Shown piece after piece: positions 1-62,821 of a stretch of DNA of 64,000 nucleotides. Below the pieces are notes generated by a model, which made no database searches, was not told the origin of the DNA, and was given only the letters and a program-made list of their open reading frames with translations. The translations under genes were made by a program, and so were the position numbers. How positions within the stretch are numbered: position 1 is the first letter of the stretch; each line of letters opens with the position of its first letter. This DNA comes from an uncultured Helicobacteraceae bacterium (GTDB lineage: Bacteria; Campylobacterota; Campylobacteria; Campylobacterales; Helicobacteraceae): the NCBI GenBank assembly GCA_934668765.1, contig CAKUOH010000011.1, positions 1-64,000 on the forward strand. The letters are read 5' to 3'.

Positions 1-33
1 ATTCCCCCTCCCTTGCGGAGAGTTTTGCATTTG
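1..33 (+). repeat. Type A palindromic repeat, partial copy
   Basis: The first bases (ATTCCCCCTCCCTTGCGGAG) match the left end of the full element at 62296-62418 exactly for 20 bases and then diverge. They are read in frame with the downstream barrel gene as SPSLAE. Confidence 0.7.
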
Positions 34-1196
34 ATTCCCCCTCTCTTGTGAGTGGGGACAAAGGGGGTGGGTTTAACACTCAAAATAACACACAATTTTC
101 AAATAACGAATCTATCCACCCACTGAGCTACCCTAGCGTAAATGAATGGGAATCTATCCTTTTGCTTAAACAAAATGAATCTTTTGCCTACAAAAGCAAT
201 TCATTATTACTAGCAGATTTACAAGAGCAAAGACAAAGGCGAATGCGAAATTCCACACAAAATCTAAATACAAGAAGCACAAATCAATCAAACAATAATT
301 CAAATTCAATAGATTTAACAAATCGCACTACAATCACAAATCAAACTATAAATCGCACAAACCAAAATGATAAATATTACTTTATTCTAACGCCCTTTGT
401 CCAGCATAATTATTTCTTTGAATCTGGGCATCGTAATCTATCAGGTTTAGAGTATGGATTCGTTACTGCTTTTAATGGCAAGGAAAATGATAGTAATTCA
501 TTAGGTGCGCATTTTATATTTAGCTATGCGAGTCTAAAAGATAGTAATGATACTATATTTAATATAACTACTATGAATCTAAATATGGGAGCAAATTATA
601 AGCTAGATTTGATTTGGGATATGTATGTGAAAGCTAGAATTGATGGATATTATTTTTTAAATGAAGTGCAATCAACAATGACAAAAGGGGATAAGATTAA
701 ACCAAATTCATTTGGCTTTGGTGTAAGTGTGAGTTATGGTAAGGAATGGGATTTTAGGAATGATGGATTGTTAGGATTAGAAGTGGGAATTGATTATAAA
801 GGATTATATGCAGATGAAATTACAATAAATGCTCTTAATTATGATGATATTTATAAATCTGCGCTTTATAATATGCTATATGTGGATTTGGGATTAAACT
901 ATGATAAATATTTTAATACAAACGCAGGACTTTGGGGACTAAATACTAGACTTGGAGTAAAAGCAAATGCCACTGCAAATAAATTAGCTAAATCTAAAAT
1001 CGCTGCATTTAATAACACTCGCAATGTCAATATGACACTTGATAATGACTTAATTTTAGCTTATTTAAATATAGCTGGAAGCTATATCTTACAATCAAAA
1101 GACTTTGATATGGAATTTTCACTTGCATTTTATGGAAACTATGGAAATAGAGTGATGAGTAATGGCGGTGGATTTGAGTGGAGAGTGGGGTGGTAG
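1..1196 (+). CDS. Outer-membrane autotransporter-type beta-barrel protein, 5' end missing
   Basis: The frame is open from base 3 to the stop at 1196, so the gene probably begins left of the window; a GTG at 48 is the first internal start (382 codons). Residues about 55-105 (counted from 48) are an Asn/Thr/Gln-rich linker. From about residue 110 onwards there are alternating aromatic and polar strands, as in an outer-membrane beta-barrel, and the protein ends in GGGFEWRVGW with a terminal aromatic residue as expected for barrel assembly. This resembles the C-terminal translocator of Helicobacter autotransporters (inference, no search run). The first 50 codons are made of the dispersed palindromic repeat described separately, read in frame. 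The passenger cannot be seen. Confidence 0.7.
   Translation, partial: SPSLAESFAFDSPSLVSGDKGGGFNTQNNTQFSNNESIHPLSYPSVNEWESILLLKQNESFAYKSNSLLLADLQEQRQRRMRNSTQNLNTRSTNQSNNNSNSIDLTNRTTITNQTINRTNQNDKYYFILTPFVQHNYFFESGHRNLSGLEYGFVTAFNGKENDSNSLGAHFIFSYASLKDSNDTIFNITTMNLNMGANYKLDLIWDMYVKARIDGYYFLNEVQSTMTKGDKIKPNSFGFGVSVSYGKEWDFRNDGLLGLEVGIDYKGLYADEITINALNYDDIYKSALYNMLYVDLGLNYDKYFNTNAGLWGLNTRLGVKANATANKLAKSKIAAFNNTRNVNMTLDNDLILAYLNIAGSYILQSKDFDMEFSLAFYGNYGNRVMSNGGGFEWRVGW
34..153 (+). repeat. Type A palindromic repeat, near full-length copy inside a reading frame
   Basis: This 120-bp stretch is collinear with the reverse complement of the 123-bp element in folD. It shares the outer ends, the GGGGACAAAGGGGGTGGGTT block, and the non-palindromic core (AACACTCAAAATAA and TTTTCAAATAACGAATCTA). 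It is in frame with the barrel gene, giving a peptide with [12 protein letters not shown] and FSNNES, both also present in FolD. The right arm is degraded. Confidence 0.8.
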
Positions 1197-6913: not shown

Positions 6914-9127
6914 TTATTGCGAATCTTGTGGCACTTTGGCGTCATTTGGAATCACATATCCATTTTTATAAATCCACCAGCTTAAAGCTTTAGCGCGTTT
7001 TAGTTGCATAAAAAGCGCATCTGCAATGGCTTTGTCATCTGCGCCCTTTGTATCGCTAAAATACTCTACGCCAAAGCCGTCATAGATGAAATTTTCAGTG
7101 GCGATTGCGTTAAATCCTAGTGCAAATGGCGATTCTACCCACCCACTAGCCCCATCTGCAAGGGAGGGGAGATTTTTGGCATTGCTACTCAAAAGTGATT
7201 GTCCAAAACTTGCATATTTAAAACCGCTTGGTGCGACAAGTTCTATAATCGTGGGTGTTATATCAATATGAGAGCCGATTTTTGCGCGTGGGATAAAATT
7301 TAGCGATGGCGCATATACAATCAAAGGCACGGCATTAGTGATTTTCGCATTTGATTCAAATGGATATTCCCTATCATAATGGTCGCCTGTGATAATAAAA
7401 AGACTACGCGGGAATTTCGCACTCATCTCTTGCACAAATCCAGCTATGACTTTATCTTGCCACCAAATATGCGCCAAAATCTTCTCGCTCACGGCTTTGC
7501 GCTTAAAATTTGGCGCATTTTCTACGAAATCTTTTATCGCCTCCATTGGCGCACCAAAATCCGCCACAGGAGCGTCATAAGGCGGGTGATTGGAAGTTGT
7601 CATAATCATATTAAAAGTTTTAAGGTTTGGATTGAGAGTCGATTCGGCAGCGATTTTATCGCGCACAAAGGCAAAAAGATGATTATCATAAGCTCCCCAC
7701 GCATTTTGATAGGGCGCAGGATAGCCCTTATTTATGGCGTTTTCTACAATGTCAGTGCCAAAGAGAATGCGGACAAAGCCCTGCTTTGTTACAAAGCTAT
7801 CGAGTTTCTGCCACGAACCACTCCCGCCGTAAAAAAAGCTCCCTTCAAATCCCAAATCACGCATAATTACCGCAGGTGCAAACGCAATATTATCAAATCG
7901 CCCCGCAAGCAAACTCAAAGGAATATCTGTCTGTAATAAACCGCTTATTTGCACATCTAAGCTTTTTATCGTGCTACCCGCATTTTGTAAGAAAATATCT
8001 GCCTTAAATCCGCCCTTTTGCTTTGCTAACTTTTTTAGCTCACTGCTTAATTTGAGCTTATCAAAATTGCTATCAAAGTGCCATTCGCTCATTGATTCAG
8101 CGATAATGTAAAAAATGTGTTGAATTTGCGAATCACTTGAATCTTCGCGATTCACGCGCTTTTGAAGCAAATCTAGTAAATTTATATCGCTAGATTCGCC
8201 CAAAGATTTATCGCCACTAAAATTTCGCGCCGTAAATTTTTTTGCCACAATTTGGGGCGATTCGCCTTGTGCGTAGTCGCTAAATTTGGAGTGTGCGATT
8301 TTGCGATAACCCAAAAATACTATGTATAAGTCGCGGAATGCACCTGTGGTAATTTTGCGTAGGAATGTATTGCTAACGGGACGAATCTCTTTACCTAAAC
8401 TTATGCCATTAAAGCCAAAATGCCCATTTATTGCAAAGAGTGTGGCAAATCCAAATATTAAAAATAGTGCGATTGCGCTTATATTTGGGGCAAATCGCGT
8501 GAATTTTGTGCTTTTTGGATTCGCGGGATTTGCGCCTAGATTCGCCCATTTTGCCGAATCAATCTTGCGAAAAATCGCACTTATGGCAACCACAAGTGCC
8601 GCACTTATCGCAATCCACGCAAGAATTTTAAGCGTGAGATTGTATTGTCCGCCCATTGCGGTGCGAAAAATCGCGCCCCTATCATCAAAAATCAGTCCCA
8701 AAAGATTCGCATTAAAAGTATCGCCATAGATTTGATAAAAGCCCATATTTGCGATATTTACAAAGCAAATTAGCGTTAGCACAAGCGCGATAAAGCCAAA
8801 AGTAATCTTGCGAAAAATGCGATTTAGGCGGTTTGGCACACTTGATTTGCTAAAATCTACGCCTAAATCAATGCGGTGGCAAAAAAGTAACAAAATAAAT
8901 ACAATTAGACTCAAAACCCCGATTATTTGCCCAAAATAGCGACTTCCATTGATAAAAGTCTGATAAATTTGCGCGTTTGATTCTAATGTGCCTAGATTCC
9001 CGCCCAAAATGCCGATATATGCGATAAAAAACGCCCGAAAGCCAAAATCTACCGCATATAAAAACACAAAAAATACCAATGATTTTGCAAAGATTCGCGC
9101 AAAATAAACGCTCATTTTCTGCCCCAA
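6914..9127 (-). CDS. LTA synthase-like / sulfatase-family membrane phosphotransferase
   Basis: This 737-aa protein has five hydrophobic segments in its first 240 residues, followed by a large periplasmic sulfatase-type domain. Visible landmarks are IFYIIAESMSEWHF (metal-binding Glu region), the GSTIKSLD block with a candidate nucleophile Thr, and ITGDHYDREYP with the Asp-His metal ligands. This is the architecture of LtaS/phosphoglycerol or phosphoethanolamine transferases that decorate envelope glycans; the donor and acceptor are unknown. Residues about 652-665 (PSLADGASGWVES) correspond to a translated half copy of the type A repeat, lying near the end of the catalytic domain. Starts are possible at 9127 and 9115, and neither has a strong ribosome-binding site. 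Confidence 0.82.
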   Translation of the reverse strand: MGQKMSVYFARIFAKSLVFFVFLYAVDFGFRAFFIAYIGILGGNLGTLESNAQIYQTFINGSRYFGQIIGVLSLIVFILLLFCHRIDLGVDFSKSSVPNRLNRIFRKITFGFIALVLTLICFVNIANMGFYQIYGDTFNANLLGLIFDDRGAIFRTAMGGQYNLTLKILAWIAISAALVVAISAIFRKIDSAKWANLGANPANPKSTKFTRFAPNISAIALFLIFGFATLFAINGHFGFNGISLGKEIRPVSNTFLRKITTGAFRDLYIVFLGYRKIAHSKFSDYAQGESPQIVAKKFTARNFSGDKSLGESSDINLLDLLQKRVNREDSSDSQIQHIFYIIAESMSEWHFDSNFDKLKLSSELKKLAKQKGGFKADIFLQNAGSTIKSLDVQISGLLQTDIPLSLLAGRFDNIAFAPAVIMRDLGFEGSFFYGGSGSWQKLDSFVTKQGFVRILFGTDIVENAINKGYPAPYQNAWGAYDNHLFAFVRDKIAAESTLNPNLKTFNMIMTTSNHPPYDAPVADFGAPMEAIKDFVENAPNFKRKAVSEKILAHIWWQDKVIAGFVQEMSAKFPRSLFIITGDHYDREYPFESNAKITNAVPLIVYAPSLNFIPRAKIGSHIDITPTIIELVAPSGFKYASFGQSLLSSNAKNLPSLADGASGWVESPFALGFNAIATENFIYDGFGVEYFSDTKGADDKAIADALFMQLKRAKALSWWIYKNGYVIPNDAKVPQDSQ
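7132..7172 (-). repeat. Type A half element inside the sulfatase-family gene
   Basis: The + strand reads ATTCTACCCACCCACTAGCC then CCATCTGCAAGGGAGGGG, matching the arm of the 123-bp element. It encodes PSLADGASGWVES, almost the same peptide as [13 protein letters not shown] in TrpS. Confidence 0.75.
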
Positions 9128-10174: not shown

Positions 10175-10216
10175 AATAAAATCCTATCTTTGCTAGAATC
10201 TGCGACTTTTGGATTT

Positions 10217-10255
10217 ACCAACCCCCTTAATCCACTCCGTAAAGGAGGGGGAAAG
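10217..10255 (+). repeat. Type A half element, intergenic
   Basis: ACCAACCCCCTTAATCCACT followed by CCGTAAAGGAGGGGGAA matches the right arm of the folD element with a few substitutions. Confidence 0.65.
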
Positions 10256-10290
10256 CGTGGCGTTACCACGCGCAAAGGAGTGGGACTTTT

Positions 10291-10470
10291 ATTATCATTG
10301 CGAGAAAAATGAGCGTAGCGAAGTATCCAAAATCGCTCGAATCTAAATTATGGGCGGAATCAATATCCCAAAAGCAAATCAACCATAAAGTTCAATCAAA
10401 GTGAGCGATTCGCCCTTGATTCACGATTCGCCAAAGTGGATACTTTGGGCTAAAGCCCTCAGTATGACAG
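10291..10470. repeat. Type C inverted repeat with GTCATACTGAG-like ends
   Basis: The left arm reads ATCATTGCGAG...GCGAAGTATCC. The right arm, reverse-complemented, reads TGTCATACTGAGGGC...AAAGTATCC. It is the same family as the copies at 48250 and 48391. Confidence 0.5.
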
Positions 10471-57463: not shown

Positions 57464-57520
57464 ATTTTTTAAATTTTTTAGTAAAAATGTGTAGATTCGT
57501 AGCAAAAATGTAAGAAATTA

Positions 57521-57562
57521 TGTCATTGCCACGAATCTACCATCGCGATTCTCGCAATGACA
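57521..57562. repeat. Type B repeat, intergenic, with perfect terminal inverted words
   Basis: TGTCATTGCCACGAATC at the left and GATTCTCGCAATGACA at the right are near-perfect inverted ends of a 42-bp unit. Confidence 0.7.
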
Positions 57563-57600
57563 ACCCACCCCCTGCGCCACCCTAGCGCAAGAGATGGGAA
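57562..57600 (+). repeat. Type A half element, intergenic, diverged
   Basis: AACCCACCCCCTGCGCCACC then CTAGCGCAAGAGATGGGAA follows the type A arm and abuts the type B copy. Confidence 0.6.
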
Positions 57601-57772: not shown

Positions 57773-58861
57773 TTAAAATAATCCTACTAATTTTTTTGCT
57801 CTTTCATAAGTCTCTCTTGCTATCGGCTCTACATTTTCGCGCCCCTTTTTTAGCACACTCATCACAAAATCCCTATTTTTTTGCAAATCATTGTATTTTT
57901 CGCGGATTGGCGTAAGTTCGGCGATTAGCAATTCAGCAAGTGCGCTTTTTAGCGCACCATAGCCCTTTCCGCTAAATTCGCTCTCAATTTCGCCGCGACT
58001 TTTGCCACTTAAAATCTCCATCATACAAAGCAGATTATAAAGCCCTGCGCGAGATTCATCAAATATTATTTCGCTTTGCGAATCCGTTACTGCGCGTTTG
58101 ATTTTACGCGTAATATCATCGGGTGAATCTAGCAAAAATATAGCGTGATTTGGGGATTTTACACTTTTACTCATCTTAATATTTGGATTATCAAGCCCCA
58201 TAATGCGCGCCACTTCACGCACTATTAGCGCGTCAGGGATTTTAAAACATTCCCCAAAGTCCCTATTAAATTTCTCCGCCACATTGCGTGTCAGCTCAAT
58301 ATGCTGCTTTTGGTCGCTCCCCACAGGCACTAAATCCGCGTTATATAGCAAAATATCTGATGCCATAAGCGCAGGATAATTAAAAAGCCCGACATTGATA
58401 TTTTTGGCATTTTTCGCGCTTTTATCCTTAAACTGTGTCATTCTACTCATATCGCCCATAAAAATATTGCAATCCAAAATCCACGCTAGGGCAGGGTGAT
58501 AGTCAATTTCGCTTTGGATAAAAAGATTTGATTTTTCAGGCACAATGCCACAAGATAGTAGCATAGCCACAAGATTTATCGTCTCATTTTGTAGCGTGGC
58601 AGGGTCTTGGCGCACGGTTATGGCGTGAGAATTTGCCACGCAAAAGATATTTTCATAAATATCTTGATTTGCCACCCACGATTTGATTGCACCAAAATAA
58701 TTGCCTATATGAATGCTCCCTGTGGGCTGAATCCCCGAAAATACGATTTTTTTTTGGGTAGATTCTGTGGATTTGTTAGATTTTGTGCTTTTTTCGGTGG
58801 AATCTACCCGCCCCCTAACCCCCTCCGCAAGGGAGGGGGTATTTTTAAATTTTGCGCTCAT
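57773..58861 (-). CDS. trpS: Tryptophanyl-tRNA synthetase with repeat-derived N-terminal leader
   Basis: The ATG at 58861 is chosen because GGAGGT lies directly before it; an ATG at 58873 would include that site. The 362-aa enzyme has the class I motifs: [16 protein letters not shown] (HIGH type) and [11 protein letters not shown] (KMSKS), plus [20 protein letters not shown]. TrpS normally starts almost directly at the VFSGIQPTG strand. Here about 35 residues precede it, made of a type A half element ([15 protein letters not shown]) and a Ser/Thr/Lys stretch ([17 protein letters not shown]). It follows bioC with its start next to the bioC stop. Confidence 0.95.
58802..58841 (-). repeat. Type A half element inside trpS
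   Basis: ATCTACCCGCCCCCTAACCC then CCTCCGCAAGGGAGGGGGTA is nearly identical to one arm of the folD element and encodes [13 protein letters not shown] at the TrpS N-terminus. Confidence 0.85.
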
Positions 58862-58872
58862 TGTTACCTCCA

Positions 58873-59598
58873 TTAATTTTTAATAAATAGCACTTCAAAA
58901 TTTAGTGCTGTGTGTGGAAAAGCACATTTAAGGCGTTTTTTGTCCCTAAATGCAAGATTCCCACCGCCAAGCAAAGCAGAATTTTTAAGATATGCTAAAA
59001 GCTCATCGCGTGTGGAAAATTCGCGCTTAAAATGCTGGATTTTAGATTCGATGCAAAAATATTTTTGTGCGATTGCTAAAATCTCACTGCTTGATTTTAG
59101 TGGCGAAGCCGTGTCTAAAAATGCGTGTAATTCGCGCAATGATTCGCTAGTAAAAATGGCAAAGGCAAATTTTTTGTGGCTAGATTCAATCGAATCTTTA
59201 AGTCTTTTAAATAATAAATCCAAGTTTTTTGCCCACTGCAATGATGAGCTAGATAAAATCAAATCAAAGTCATCGCTAAAATCATAGCTTTCAAAATCGC
59301 TCACTATCAAGCGAATCTGCGCGATATGTGATAGTTTTCGTGGGTGCAAGGCTAACATATTTGGCGCGTTATCAATGCCAAGCAAAAAATCCACGCTATG
59401 CGCTAGATTCAAAGCCACATTGCCACTTCCTGCGCCCAAATCAATGATTTTTTTATAGTGCCAAGATTCGCAAAAATCTAGTAATATTTTTGCGACTTCA
59501 TTTTGCAAAGAGCAGTTTTTAGCGTAAGATAGCGATTTTTTGTCAAATGAATGGCGAATCGTGCCCTTTGTCGCCATATTTACATTATTTGCACTCAC
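58873..59598 (-). CDS. bioC: Malonyl-ACP O-methyltransferase-like protein
   Basis: This 241-aa SAM-dependent methyltransferase has motif I as [13 protein letters not shown] near residue 50. BioC features are the N-terminal [40 protein letters not shown] after motif [19 protein letters not shown], and [15 protein letters not shown]. BioC methylates malonyl-ACP to start pimelate synthesis for biotin. No other bio gene is nearby, so the name rests on these motifs. The start could be at 59598 or at ATG 59577 ([11 protein letters not shown]). Confidence 0.82.
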
Positions 59599-60734: not shown

Positions 60735-61661
60735 TTAATCTTTCGCGCCTTTAGATTCGCGTGAATCTTTAGATTCCCATTCCCTTGTGGATGGGGAAGT
60801 TTCTGCGATTTTATCACTATTTACAGAATCTACCTTTTTTTCAGCTAATCTTTCTAATCCCTCCACACCTTTAAACATTCGCTCCCAGCGGATTTTGTAA
60901 GTGTATTTTGCACCAAGTTTGGATTCATCGCTATTTGCTAGATTTAGACTAAAATAAATAAACCACGGAGTGCCGATAATGTCGCGGTATGGCACACTGC
61001 CCCAAAAGCGCGAATCCTCGCTCCCATCGCGATTATCCCCCACCATAAAAAAATGGTCGCTTTCGACTTTGTGGTAAAAATAAATCTCGCCATTGCTCGC
61101 TTGATATGGCTTCATCGCACCACCGCGAATAAGAAGCATATTATAAGAAATCGTATCGGTGGGATTGTAATGAATGCCCTTAAATTCGCGCATAAAAGGA
61201 TTTTTTACAAATGCTTTGCCCATAAATTCGCGCTTTTCAAAGTCGGCGTATTTGTCATTTATCAGTGAATCGCCTTCAACGGGGCGCAAATATAGCCCGT
61301 CCTTTGCCATTACCACTTCATCGCCACCTATCGCAAAAGTGCGCTTGACAAAATAAGTCTTTTCCAAATGTGGCGGGATAAAAATCACAATCTCCCCGCG
61401 TGTGGGGCGTTTGCCCTCCATAATATGTCCATTGCCACGAAAATCTGGTAAAACAGGGACTTCAATCCACGGGATTCGCGGAATGGGAATGCCGTAGGAA
61501 AATTTTTTCACAAAGAGCAAATCGCCCTCATATAGCGTATTTACCATTGAGCGCGATGGGATTATAAAGGCTTGTGCTACAAAAAAGATAAGAAATAGCA
61601 CGATGATAATTGTGCCTATCCAAGTGGTAGAAAATGCGTAGAGTTTTTTAAGAAAGTTCAT
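60735..61661 (-). CDS. lepB: Signal peptidase I
   Basis: The ATG at 61661, after AAAGGACA and overlapping the folD stop, gives 308 aa; the longer frame to 61817 lies inside folD. One membrane anchor ([20 protein letters not shown]) is followed by the catalytic Ser38 in [11 protein letters not shown] and Lys106 in [28 protein letters not shown] is the third box. It removes signal peptides of exported proteins. The C-terminus has about 35 extra hydrophilic residues ([20 protein letters not shown]) encoded by a type A fragment and a GATTC box. Confidence 0.95.
60774..60799 (-). repeat. Type A fragment inside the lepB 3' end
   Basis: TTCCCATTCCCTTGTGGATG and GGGAAG match the outer end of the type A element with substitutions and encode SPSTREWES. 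The gene at the left edge has the similar YPSVNEWES. Confidence 0.55.
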
Positions 61662-62821
61662 TGTTGTCCTTTTGAAGTAGATTCTGCGTTTTTGGCAGAT
61701 TTTTCGTTGCAAACAATCGAAGTATTTGCGGTAGTGCTTGTGGAGTTTTTGCAAAATTTTGGGGATGAGACTAGACTTGAAGTCTGCGAAGCCCCGAAAT
61801 TTTGCAAATCTACGCAATGATTACCAAAAGACAAATTGCTAGAATTTGTCAAAATTTCTGCACAAAGCAAAGTATTTTTAAGTAGCATTGCAATCGTCAT
61901 TGGTCCCACACCCCCCGGCACAGGCGTGATAAAACTAGATTTTTGCGCCACGCGCTCAAAATCCACATCGCCTTTGATTTTGCCATCAATCTTATTTATG
62001 CCTATATCTATCACAATCGCGCCCTCTTTTATCATATCTGCTGTGATTAGATTTACCTTGCCAACGCCCACGCACACAATATCCGCAGTTTTGGTAAAAA
62101 TGCTAATGTCCTTTGTCAAAATGTGGCACACGCTAATAGTCGCCCCTGCATTTAGCATAAGCACGGAGAGTGGCTTTCCTACGATATTACTAGCACCTAT
62201 TATGGCGACATTTTTGCCACTAACTTCAATGTGGTAGGCTTTGAGTAGTTCCATAACGCCCAAAGGCGTGGCGGGAGCAAGAATAGGGATATTATATTCC
62301 CCCTCCCTTGCGGAGGGGGTTAGGGGGTGGGTAGATTCGTTATTTGAAAATTTTGTGCTACTATTATTTTGAGTGTTAAACCCACCCCCTTTGTCCCCCT
62401 CCGCAAGGGAGGGGGAATTTTTACAATCCGAAAAAAGTCGTCCCACATTATACGGGTGAAACCCATCTACATCTTTTTTTACCCAAATCGCTTCCAAAAT
62501 TGCATCTGTATTTATATGCTTTGGCAGGGGCAGTTGCACCAAAATCCCGCTTACGCTTTTATCGGCATTTAACCTTGCAATCTCGCCAAGCAAAAAATCT
62601 TGCGAAATATTTTCATCAAACTTTATGATTTGCGATTCAATGCCTGTGCGCTCACAAGCCTTATGCTTCATATTGACATAGCTTAAAGACGCGGGATTTT
62701 CGCCTACCAAAATCACGCAGAGTTTAGGGAAAATGCCTTGTGCTTTTAGATTTGCGACTTCAAGGGCGACTTCGCTTTGAATCTTGTCGCTTAACGCCCT
62801 GCCGTCTAAAATAACGCCCAT
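61658..62821 (-). CDS. folD: Methylenetetrahydrofolate dehydrogenase/cyclohydrolase with 41-codon repeat insert
   Basis: FolD interconverts one-carbon units on tetrahydrofolate. Its landmarks are present: [20 protein letters not shown] with the catalytic Lys, [54 protein letters not shown] and [16 protein letters not shown]. Typical FolD is about 285 aa and this one has 387. Two additions explain it. One is a 41-codon in-frame type A element (residues 135-175) just before the PATPLG substrate loop. The other is a C-terminal tail of about 60 residues ([20 protein letters not shown]...) that also holds an inverted repeat. All catalytic motifs are intact. It lies between serA and lepB, overlapping lepB. 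Confidence 0.94.
61750..61806. repeat. Inverted repeat inside the folD C-terminal tail
   Basis: TTTGCAAAATTTTGGGG and CCCCGAAATTTTGCAAA are 17-base arms with one mismatch, enclosing the smaller palindrome AGACTTGAAGTCT. It is translated as part of the FolD tail. Confidence 0.7.
62296..62418. repeat. Type A palindromic element, full copy inside folD (123 bp)
   Basis: The outer arms are inverted: left 62296-62332 and right 62380-62418 agree at the outer 24 bases and again at the inner GGGGGTGGGT. Each arm is itself a hairpin (CCCCCTCC, CTTGC, GGAGGGGG). The 47-bp centre is not palindromic and is shared with the copy at 34-153. Length is a multiple of three and there is no stop in the folD frame. 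Confidence 0.9.

Follow-up and report, generated by a model that had tools for sequence, protein, structure and literature searches.

The folD locus and its nested palindrome

The window analysed herein is a stretch of 64,000 nucleotides from an uncultured Helicobacteraceae bacterium. Within it, the minus-strand gene folD is interrupted in frame by a nested palindrome of 123 bp (62296-62418), as delimited by the open reading frames (ORFs) of the window and a repeat analysis. The features of this locus are the following.

61658..62821, minus strand: folD host gene, 387 aa (ORF, Pfam, AlphaFold model)
62296..62418, minus strand: full element, an inverted half-unit pair with AT-rich core, in frame in folD and encoding a 40-residue segment
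62296..62319, plus strand: left arm, 24 nt, itself a hairpin (inverted-repeat analysis)
62395..62418, minus strand: right arm, 24 nt, itself a hairpin (inverted-repeat analysis)
62322..62332, plus strand: left inner arm, with the AGGGGGTGGGT tail, partner of 62380-62390 (inverted-repeat analysis)
62380..62390, minus strand: right inner arm (inverted-repeat analysis)

The outer arms (24 nt each, 100% complementary) are spaced by 75 nt, and the inner arms (11 nt each, also 100% complementary) have 47 nt between them. With these perfect arms and an uninterrupted ORF, the 123-bp nested palindrome in frame in folD that an earlier note on this DNA had described was confirmed. The same note held that each arm contains its own hairpin and that the arms pair with each other; in the sequence, either outer arm is able to form a hairpin (CCCCCTCC/GGAGGGGG). 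The computed fold of the coding strand (-77.3 kcal/mol vs -36.5 in shuffles, sd 3.9; z -10.4) has a stability matched by 0 of 200 shuffles. Only one of the six frames of the element is free of stops, and it is the frame used by folD. No Rfam family matched anywhere in the window at gathering thresholds.

In the protein, the element lies in a loop directly N-terminal of the PATPLG motif region. Both Pfam domains of FolD score far above cut-off, and the AlphaFold model reaches a pLDDT of at least 70 in 276 of 387 residues, 206 of these at 90 or above; the solved structures closest to it in fold are the FolD proteins of Campylobacter jejuni and H. pylori. Values below 50 are found in residues 135-176, which form the insert, and in the tail (residues 330-387). 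FolD carries an extra peptide that is probably floppy.

A repeat unit of about 37 nt and its copies in the window

Comparison of the copies resolved a repeat unit of about 37 nt, ATTCCCCCTCCCTTGCGGAGGGGG-TTA-GGGGGTGGGT, in which a hairpin is followed by a variable linker of 3 nt and a G-rich GGGGGTGGG tail. The folD element consists of two such half-units, inverted around an AT-rich core, the right one having a linker of 5 nt. Further copies in the window were located by BLAST.

34..153, plus strand: another copy of the full type with one degenerate hairpin, in frame within ORF 3-1196
1..20, plus strand: further half-unit, a fragment at the window edge, within ORF 3-1196
58755..58842, minus strand: half-unit and core, in frame, trpS N-terminus (ORF 57773-58873)
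7123..7173, minus strand: diverged half-unit, in frame in an LTA-synthase/sulfatase-like gene (ORF 6914-9127)
10213..10254, minus strand: diverged half-unit, intergenic (E 1e-5)
57562..57598, plus strand: weak, tentative half-unit, intergenic (E 0.02)
60773..60797, minus strand: tentative remnant of a hairpin, a weak match (E 0.02), lepB-like gene 60735-61817, C-terminal tail

The copy at 34-153, which the earlier note had singled out as a relative with a common core, is 86% identical to the folD element over 97 nt, core included. Its far hairpin is degenerate, and the same element strand and frame are open in both copies; its host, ORF 3-1196, is autotransporter-like with a Pfam score of 25 bits, slightly under the cut-off of 26. 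The AT-rich core is common to separate sites, namely the folD loop, ORF 3-1196 and the C-terminal tail of the FolD homologue P0008. Of the view that a defined unit has been dispersed, the dispersal therefore stands, with the core at more than one site, but what is repeated is the half-unit of about 37 nt and not the 123-bp whole.

Two intergenic stretches beside the weak units (10285-10320 and 57520-57566) include segments that resemble CATTGCGAG and perhaps belong to another repeat family. A prophage in the window was considered and dropped, the PHROGs matches, in 2 of 10 ORFs, being molybdopterin oxidoreductase-like and DnaG-like primase proteins.

Orthologues with and without the insert

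The window FolD was aligned with 35 of 120 listed homologues, the comparison that the earlier note had proposed, and both empty orthologues and one shorter same-species form were found. The insert is present in P0001-P0006, six full-length protein clusters of the same species (97-99% identity). The site is empty in P0019, P0028, P0031, P0050, P0074 and P0112 and nearly empty in P0034, so that the insert is not shared by all FolD proteins; its presence throughout the genus at this position, with ordinary divergence, is what the note had named as contrary to its reading. Relative to P0019, the net gain is 41 codons (44 vs 3 residues from DCK to PILAP), exactly the length claimed. In the same-species protein P0007, 32 of the 41 insert codons are lacking. 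Removal by script of the 96 nt between two GGAGGGGG copies, which are 8-bp direct repeats, reproduced both its length (355 residues) and its junction, and P0007 could also be an older form rather than a deletion product.

In P0008, the folD element is found in the C-terminal tail, and the loop holds other inserts; the loop of P0011 contains a half-unit. The FolD loop is an insertion hot spot, as most of the remaining close relatives have different inserts at this place. Many different repeat peptides, such as SIVSEKSGLCSCERGNKT and NDSSLRG, stand before PATPLG in P0008-P0024. In addition, a further palindrome is read in frame in the region encoding the FolD C-terminal tail (61658-61850). Its arms, 61748-61764 and 61792-61808, are 94% complementary, and its 24-residue peptide is found again in the loop inserts of P0010 and, in a looser form, P0012; a second translated repeat family therefore seems to be present.

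The trpS copy lies, as read from the sequence, downstream of GGAGG and of the ATG of MSAKFKN (ATG at 58861), and no other in-frame ATG, GTG or TTG was seen ahead of the conserved body. Among the 16 of 120 TrpS proteins compared, the insert is present in P0121 (99%), short N-termini with no insert occur in P0127, P0128 and P0130 (88-89%), and other Ser-rich extensions without the unit are found in P0122-P0126 and P0129; P0131, from Helicobacter sp. 23-1045, is 89% identical to the window TrpS. For the LTA-synthase-like protein, 13 aligned homologues of 64 listed were compared: the unit is present in P0241 and P0242 and absent in 9 of the 13, while P0249 and P0251 do not cover the site. Given the unrelated extensions in sister FolD loops and TrpS N-termini, part of this variability could be local accretion.

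Distribution among genomes

The earlier note had asked for a search of other genomes with the 123-bp sequence and had named a lack of other genomic copies as speaking against its reading. Such copies exist: the 123-nt query matched in 11 of 121 genomes of the family, copy numbers being lower bounds, as up to 7 candidates were scored per genome. A 32-base half-unit pattern, allowing at most 2 mismatches, occurred in 9 of 397 genomes of the phylum, its reversed control in none; one of these nine, G378, is not among the genomes matched by the 123-nt query. G047 and G119 contain units with 100% identity to those of the window over 37-38 nt, and units are also present in G064 and G089, whose contigs are as long as the genome. 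In all 11 carrier genomes the FolD site is empty.

The 123-bp element had no match in any of nine Helicobacter genomes to which FolD loci gave access. Neither it nor a 43-nt extended half-unit matched phage or plasmid collections, and the 32-base half-unit pattern had no exact match in viral contigs. A pan-bacterial repeat of exactly this sequence was dropped as an explanation, the pattern with up to 2 mismatches being absent from all 5 mixed-phyla genomes and from all 395 genomes belonging to the same phylum as an Alistipes locus.

Gene context and open frames

Units were counted in 59 stretches fetched around matches (L169-L227) and in the window, and a bit-score limit of 42 yielded 105 units. 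In genome G047, all 26 examined units lie wholly in open frames of at least 200 aa, and five of the six frames are used. All four counted units of the window, two in folD and one each in trpS and the LTA-synthase-like gene, are likewise in long frames; the copy at 34-153 and those between genes score below the limit and are left out of this count. In the other 11 genomes, 31 of 75 units are wholly within open frames of at least 200 aa; G047 is therefore exceptional, most counted units elsewhere lying outside such frames. The 26 units of G047 are spread over 17 ORFs, 15 of which have a Pfam family above cut-off. The hosts include methionyl- and another class I tRNA synthetase, DnaX, a penicillin-binding protein, a TPP enzyme and LysA, as well as a P-type ATPase, ResB, two AcrB-type pumps and UvrD-type helicases. 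In LysA, the unit lies within residues 132-167, between the two stretches that align to diaminopimelate decarboxylase 2qgh.

Selection for readability in at least one frame, as suggested in the earlier note, was not supported by shuffle controls. At least one open frame was retained in 1333 of 2000 shuffles of the folD element, so its single open frame is by itself no evidence of selection. The 105 units have on average 4.68 open frames of six, vs 4.84 in shuffles; 101 of them are open in at least four frames, and 35 are open in all six, with 31.3 expected. Since shuffles are equally open, it is their shortness and GC-rich composition that make units tolerable in genes, and the idea that the unit is designed for openness was rejected. 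This control is without bearing on dispersal or in-frame residence.

Origin and spread

The element is dispersed, its host genes are kept in frame, it is absent from some orthologues, and its folD copy varies in length within one species. The likely explanation is a REP-like palindromic repeat that exists as single units of about 37 nt and as inverted pairs, in genes and between them, and that spreads by a copy-and-insert process and decays by deletion. Among 25 neighbouring unit pairs at most 250 nt apart, 19 are inverted (14 '+-' and 5 '-+'), five are '--' and one is '++'. Insertion would occur with little regard to genes, and the survivors would be those insertions that leave an open frame in a protein loop, linker or terminus, the encoded peptide being tolerated rather than used. 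Copying might be achieved by a transposase in trans or by hairpin-seeded strand switching at replication forks, travel between species may take place inside restriction-modification genes, and deletion between direct repeats within the arms would bring about decay.

As to the mobilising agent, PF01797 (Y1_Tnp) was detected in 2 of 11 carriers (G116 and G119), in 2 of 9 element-free genomes and in 5 of 14 control genomes; it was not detected in G064 and G089. A RAYT is therefore unlikely as the general agent and was rejected as a general mobilising mechanism. Movement by a transposase in trans, as the earlier note had envisaged, gained no support from this distribution, and no target duplication was read; the palindromic ends make the border of the element ambiguous.

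A rather unlikely account dispenses with transposition: tolerant loops and tails would lengthen by slippage, template switching and recombination between existing repeats, and shared units would reflect gene conversion or natural transformation. It draws on the unrelated low-complexity inserts that abound in the FolD loop, FolD tail and TrpS N-terminus of sister species, on the G047 stretches saturated with AGATTCTA words, and on P0007, which is compatible with recombinational deletion. Against it stand the core-bearing unit at unrelated sites and the perfect 37-38-nt matches in G047 and G119, for which slippage alone is insufficient.

Retention of the insert for a function, either of the FolD peptide or of an mRNA hairpin tuning expression, would agree with its preservation in the six full-length same-species clusters and with the very stable RNA fold. 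This is very improbable, however, as one cluster of the same species is shorter by 32 of 41 codons, the insert is modelled at low confidence, as expected of disorder, and related peptides occupy unrelated positions of unrelated proteins. Just as improbable is a canonical, GTAG-tagged REP family mobilised by a RAYT. The size, hairpin and inverted dimers of the units fit the definitions given in PMC3733652, and GTAG follows the tail in several window copies and in L102 of another genome, but this GTAG is located 3' of the hairpin, most units of other genomes end in GGGT followed by varied sequence, and among the 11 carriers the transposase family was found in the two named above. An assembly or binning artefact, to which palindromes are prone through mis-assembly, can practically be dismissed in view of six other protein clusters that carry the insert at 97-99% identity and of the units on the genome-length contigs of G064 and G089.

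Relation to known repeats

Rickettsia palindromic elements (RPE-1 and others) are palindromes of similar size to the present element. As in these elements, a palindrome resides in frame in genes and orthologues without the insert exist, and the parallel drawn in the earlier note holds in both respects, with insert-free orthologues of folD, trpS and the LTA-synthase-like gene. Unlike them, compared here by description only, the present element belongs to another phylum and splits into half-units that also stand alone. MITEs are 70-300 bp long and have terminal inverted repeats. Such repeats are also found here (24 nt and perfect in the folD copy, degenerate at 34-153), whereas a parent transposon and a target duplication were not found, and the present arms are hairpins that serve as separate repeats. 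The MITE class is described in PMC3733652.

GTAG-tagged REPs are hairpin repeats of 20-40 nt, multicopy and often in inverted dimers, which the present unit resembles in its length of about 37 nt and its prevalence of inverted pairs (19/25). According to PMC3733652, GTAG and CGTC REPs are short palindromes that occur singly or as dimers, for the most part with 20-100 bp between them, and some are wholly intragenic, as here. In contrast, the present units, inspected by eye, lack a conserved terminal GTAG and show CGTC at neither end; they combine a hairpin with a G-rich tail, and a Y1 transposase was undetected in 9 of 11 carriers. The family is untagged and is therefore placed as a variant of the REP kind, not as a GTAG or CGTC REP. 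Di Nocera et al. (2013; PMC3733652) report that REPs and their dimers lie within many genes, among them those for tRNA synthetases and repair, in several phyla; they name Rickettsia RPEs as the known in-frame case, and note untagged REP-like families in other genera. A literature search, judged by titles, gave no description of a Helicobacter equivalent; a term search of the text of PMC3733652 gave no mention of Helicobacter, and a RepRanger table in PMC12306157 contains an H. pylori row. In-frame intragenic REPs and REP dimers are thus already known, and what is new is an untagged family in relatives of Helicobacter.

Rickettsia and a few other genomes are the best-known sources of in-frame palindromic elements (PMC3733652). 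A group near named Helicobacter, with elements in core enzymes that vary in length within species and are absent from some orthologues, would offer a test of whether repeats give rise to new segments of proteins and of what this costs.

Restriction-modification genes as hosts

Outside G047 and the window, 15 complete unit-bearing ORFs of at least 400 aa were available. By Pfam, 11 of them are restriction-modification genes (Type ISP, Eco57I/TaqI_C, HsdR, N6_N4 methylases and Type I S), and the remaining four comprise two saccharopine dehydrogenases, one terminase with the unit at its very start, and one ORF with DUF559 only. Among random unit-free ORFs from the same stretches (20 of 111), classed by reading their Pfam matches, four were restriction genes (GmrSD, two ResIII and one Methylase_S), one further helicase being left uncounted. 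The excess (11/15 vs 4/20) is significant by a one-sided Fisher test (p = 0.002), in a comparison where unit-bearing ORFs are longer than controls, the stretches were picked around units, and several of the 11 hosts share one type (Type ISP) and are maybe not independent. Two restriction-modification gene pieces used as DNA queries gave, in the match tables, homologues aligned over parts of the query, none close enough to reveal a target duplication.

It is conceivable, albeit doubtful, that restriction-modification genes act as both shuttle and nursery: units in linkers around the target-recognition domain would promote specificity-domain exchange and carry the element between species, followed in some lineages (the window clade and G047) by bursts into essential genes that would load the proteome with disordered inserts. 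The restriction-modification link suggests a route of spread that is checkable in existing genomes.

Neighbouring repeats and short words

The density of AGATTCTA in G047 is similar to or above that of DNA uptake sequences: in L169-L179, 215 kb of stretches chosen around units, this 8-mer occurs 1285 times on both strands, 88 times as often as base composition predicts and 16 times as often as a third-order Markov model does. Within long ORFs of G047, 846 of 958 copies are in two phases, reading Asp-Ser or Glu-Ser. The window word GATTCGC is weaker, with 125 occurrences in 64 kb (22-fold over composition, 2.8-fold over the Markov model). When the cores of seven G047 inverted pairs were compared, 12 of 21 comparisons outscored 198 or more of 200 shuffles, and the other 9 fell short of this; the common AGATTCTA words may contribute to this similarity. 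Finally, several units in L082, L093, L104, L105 and L107 are directly followed by GGGTCATTGCGAG or GGGTTGTCATGTTGA, perhaps the starts of other repeat families, and different repeats therefore appear to abut.
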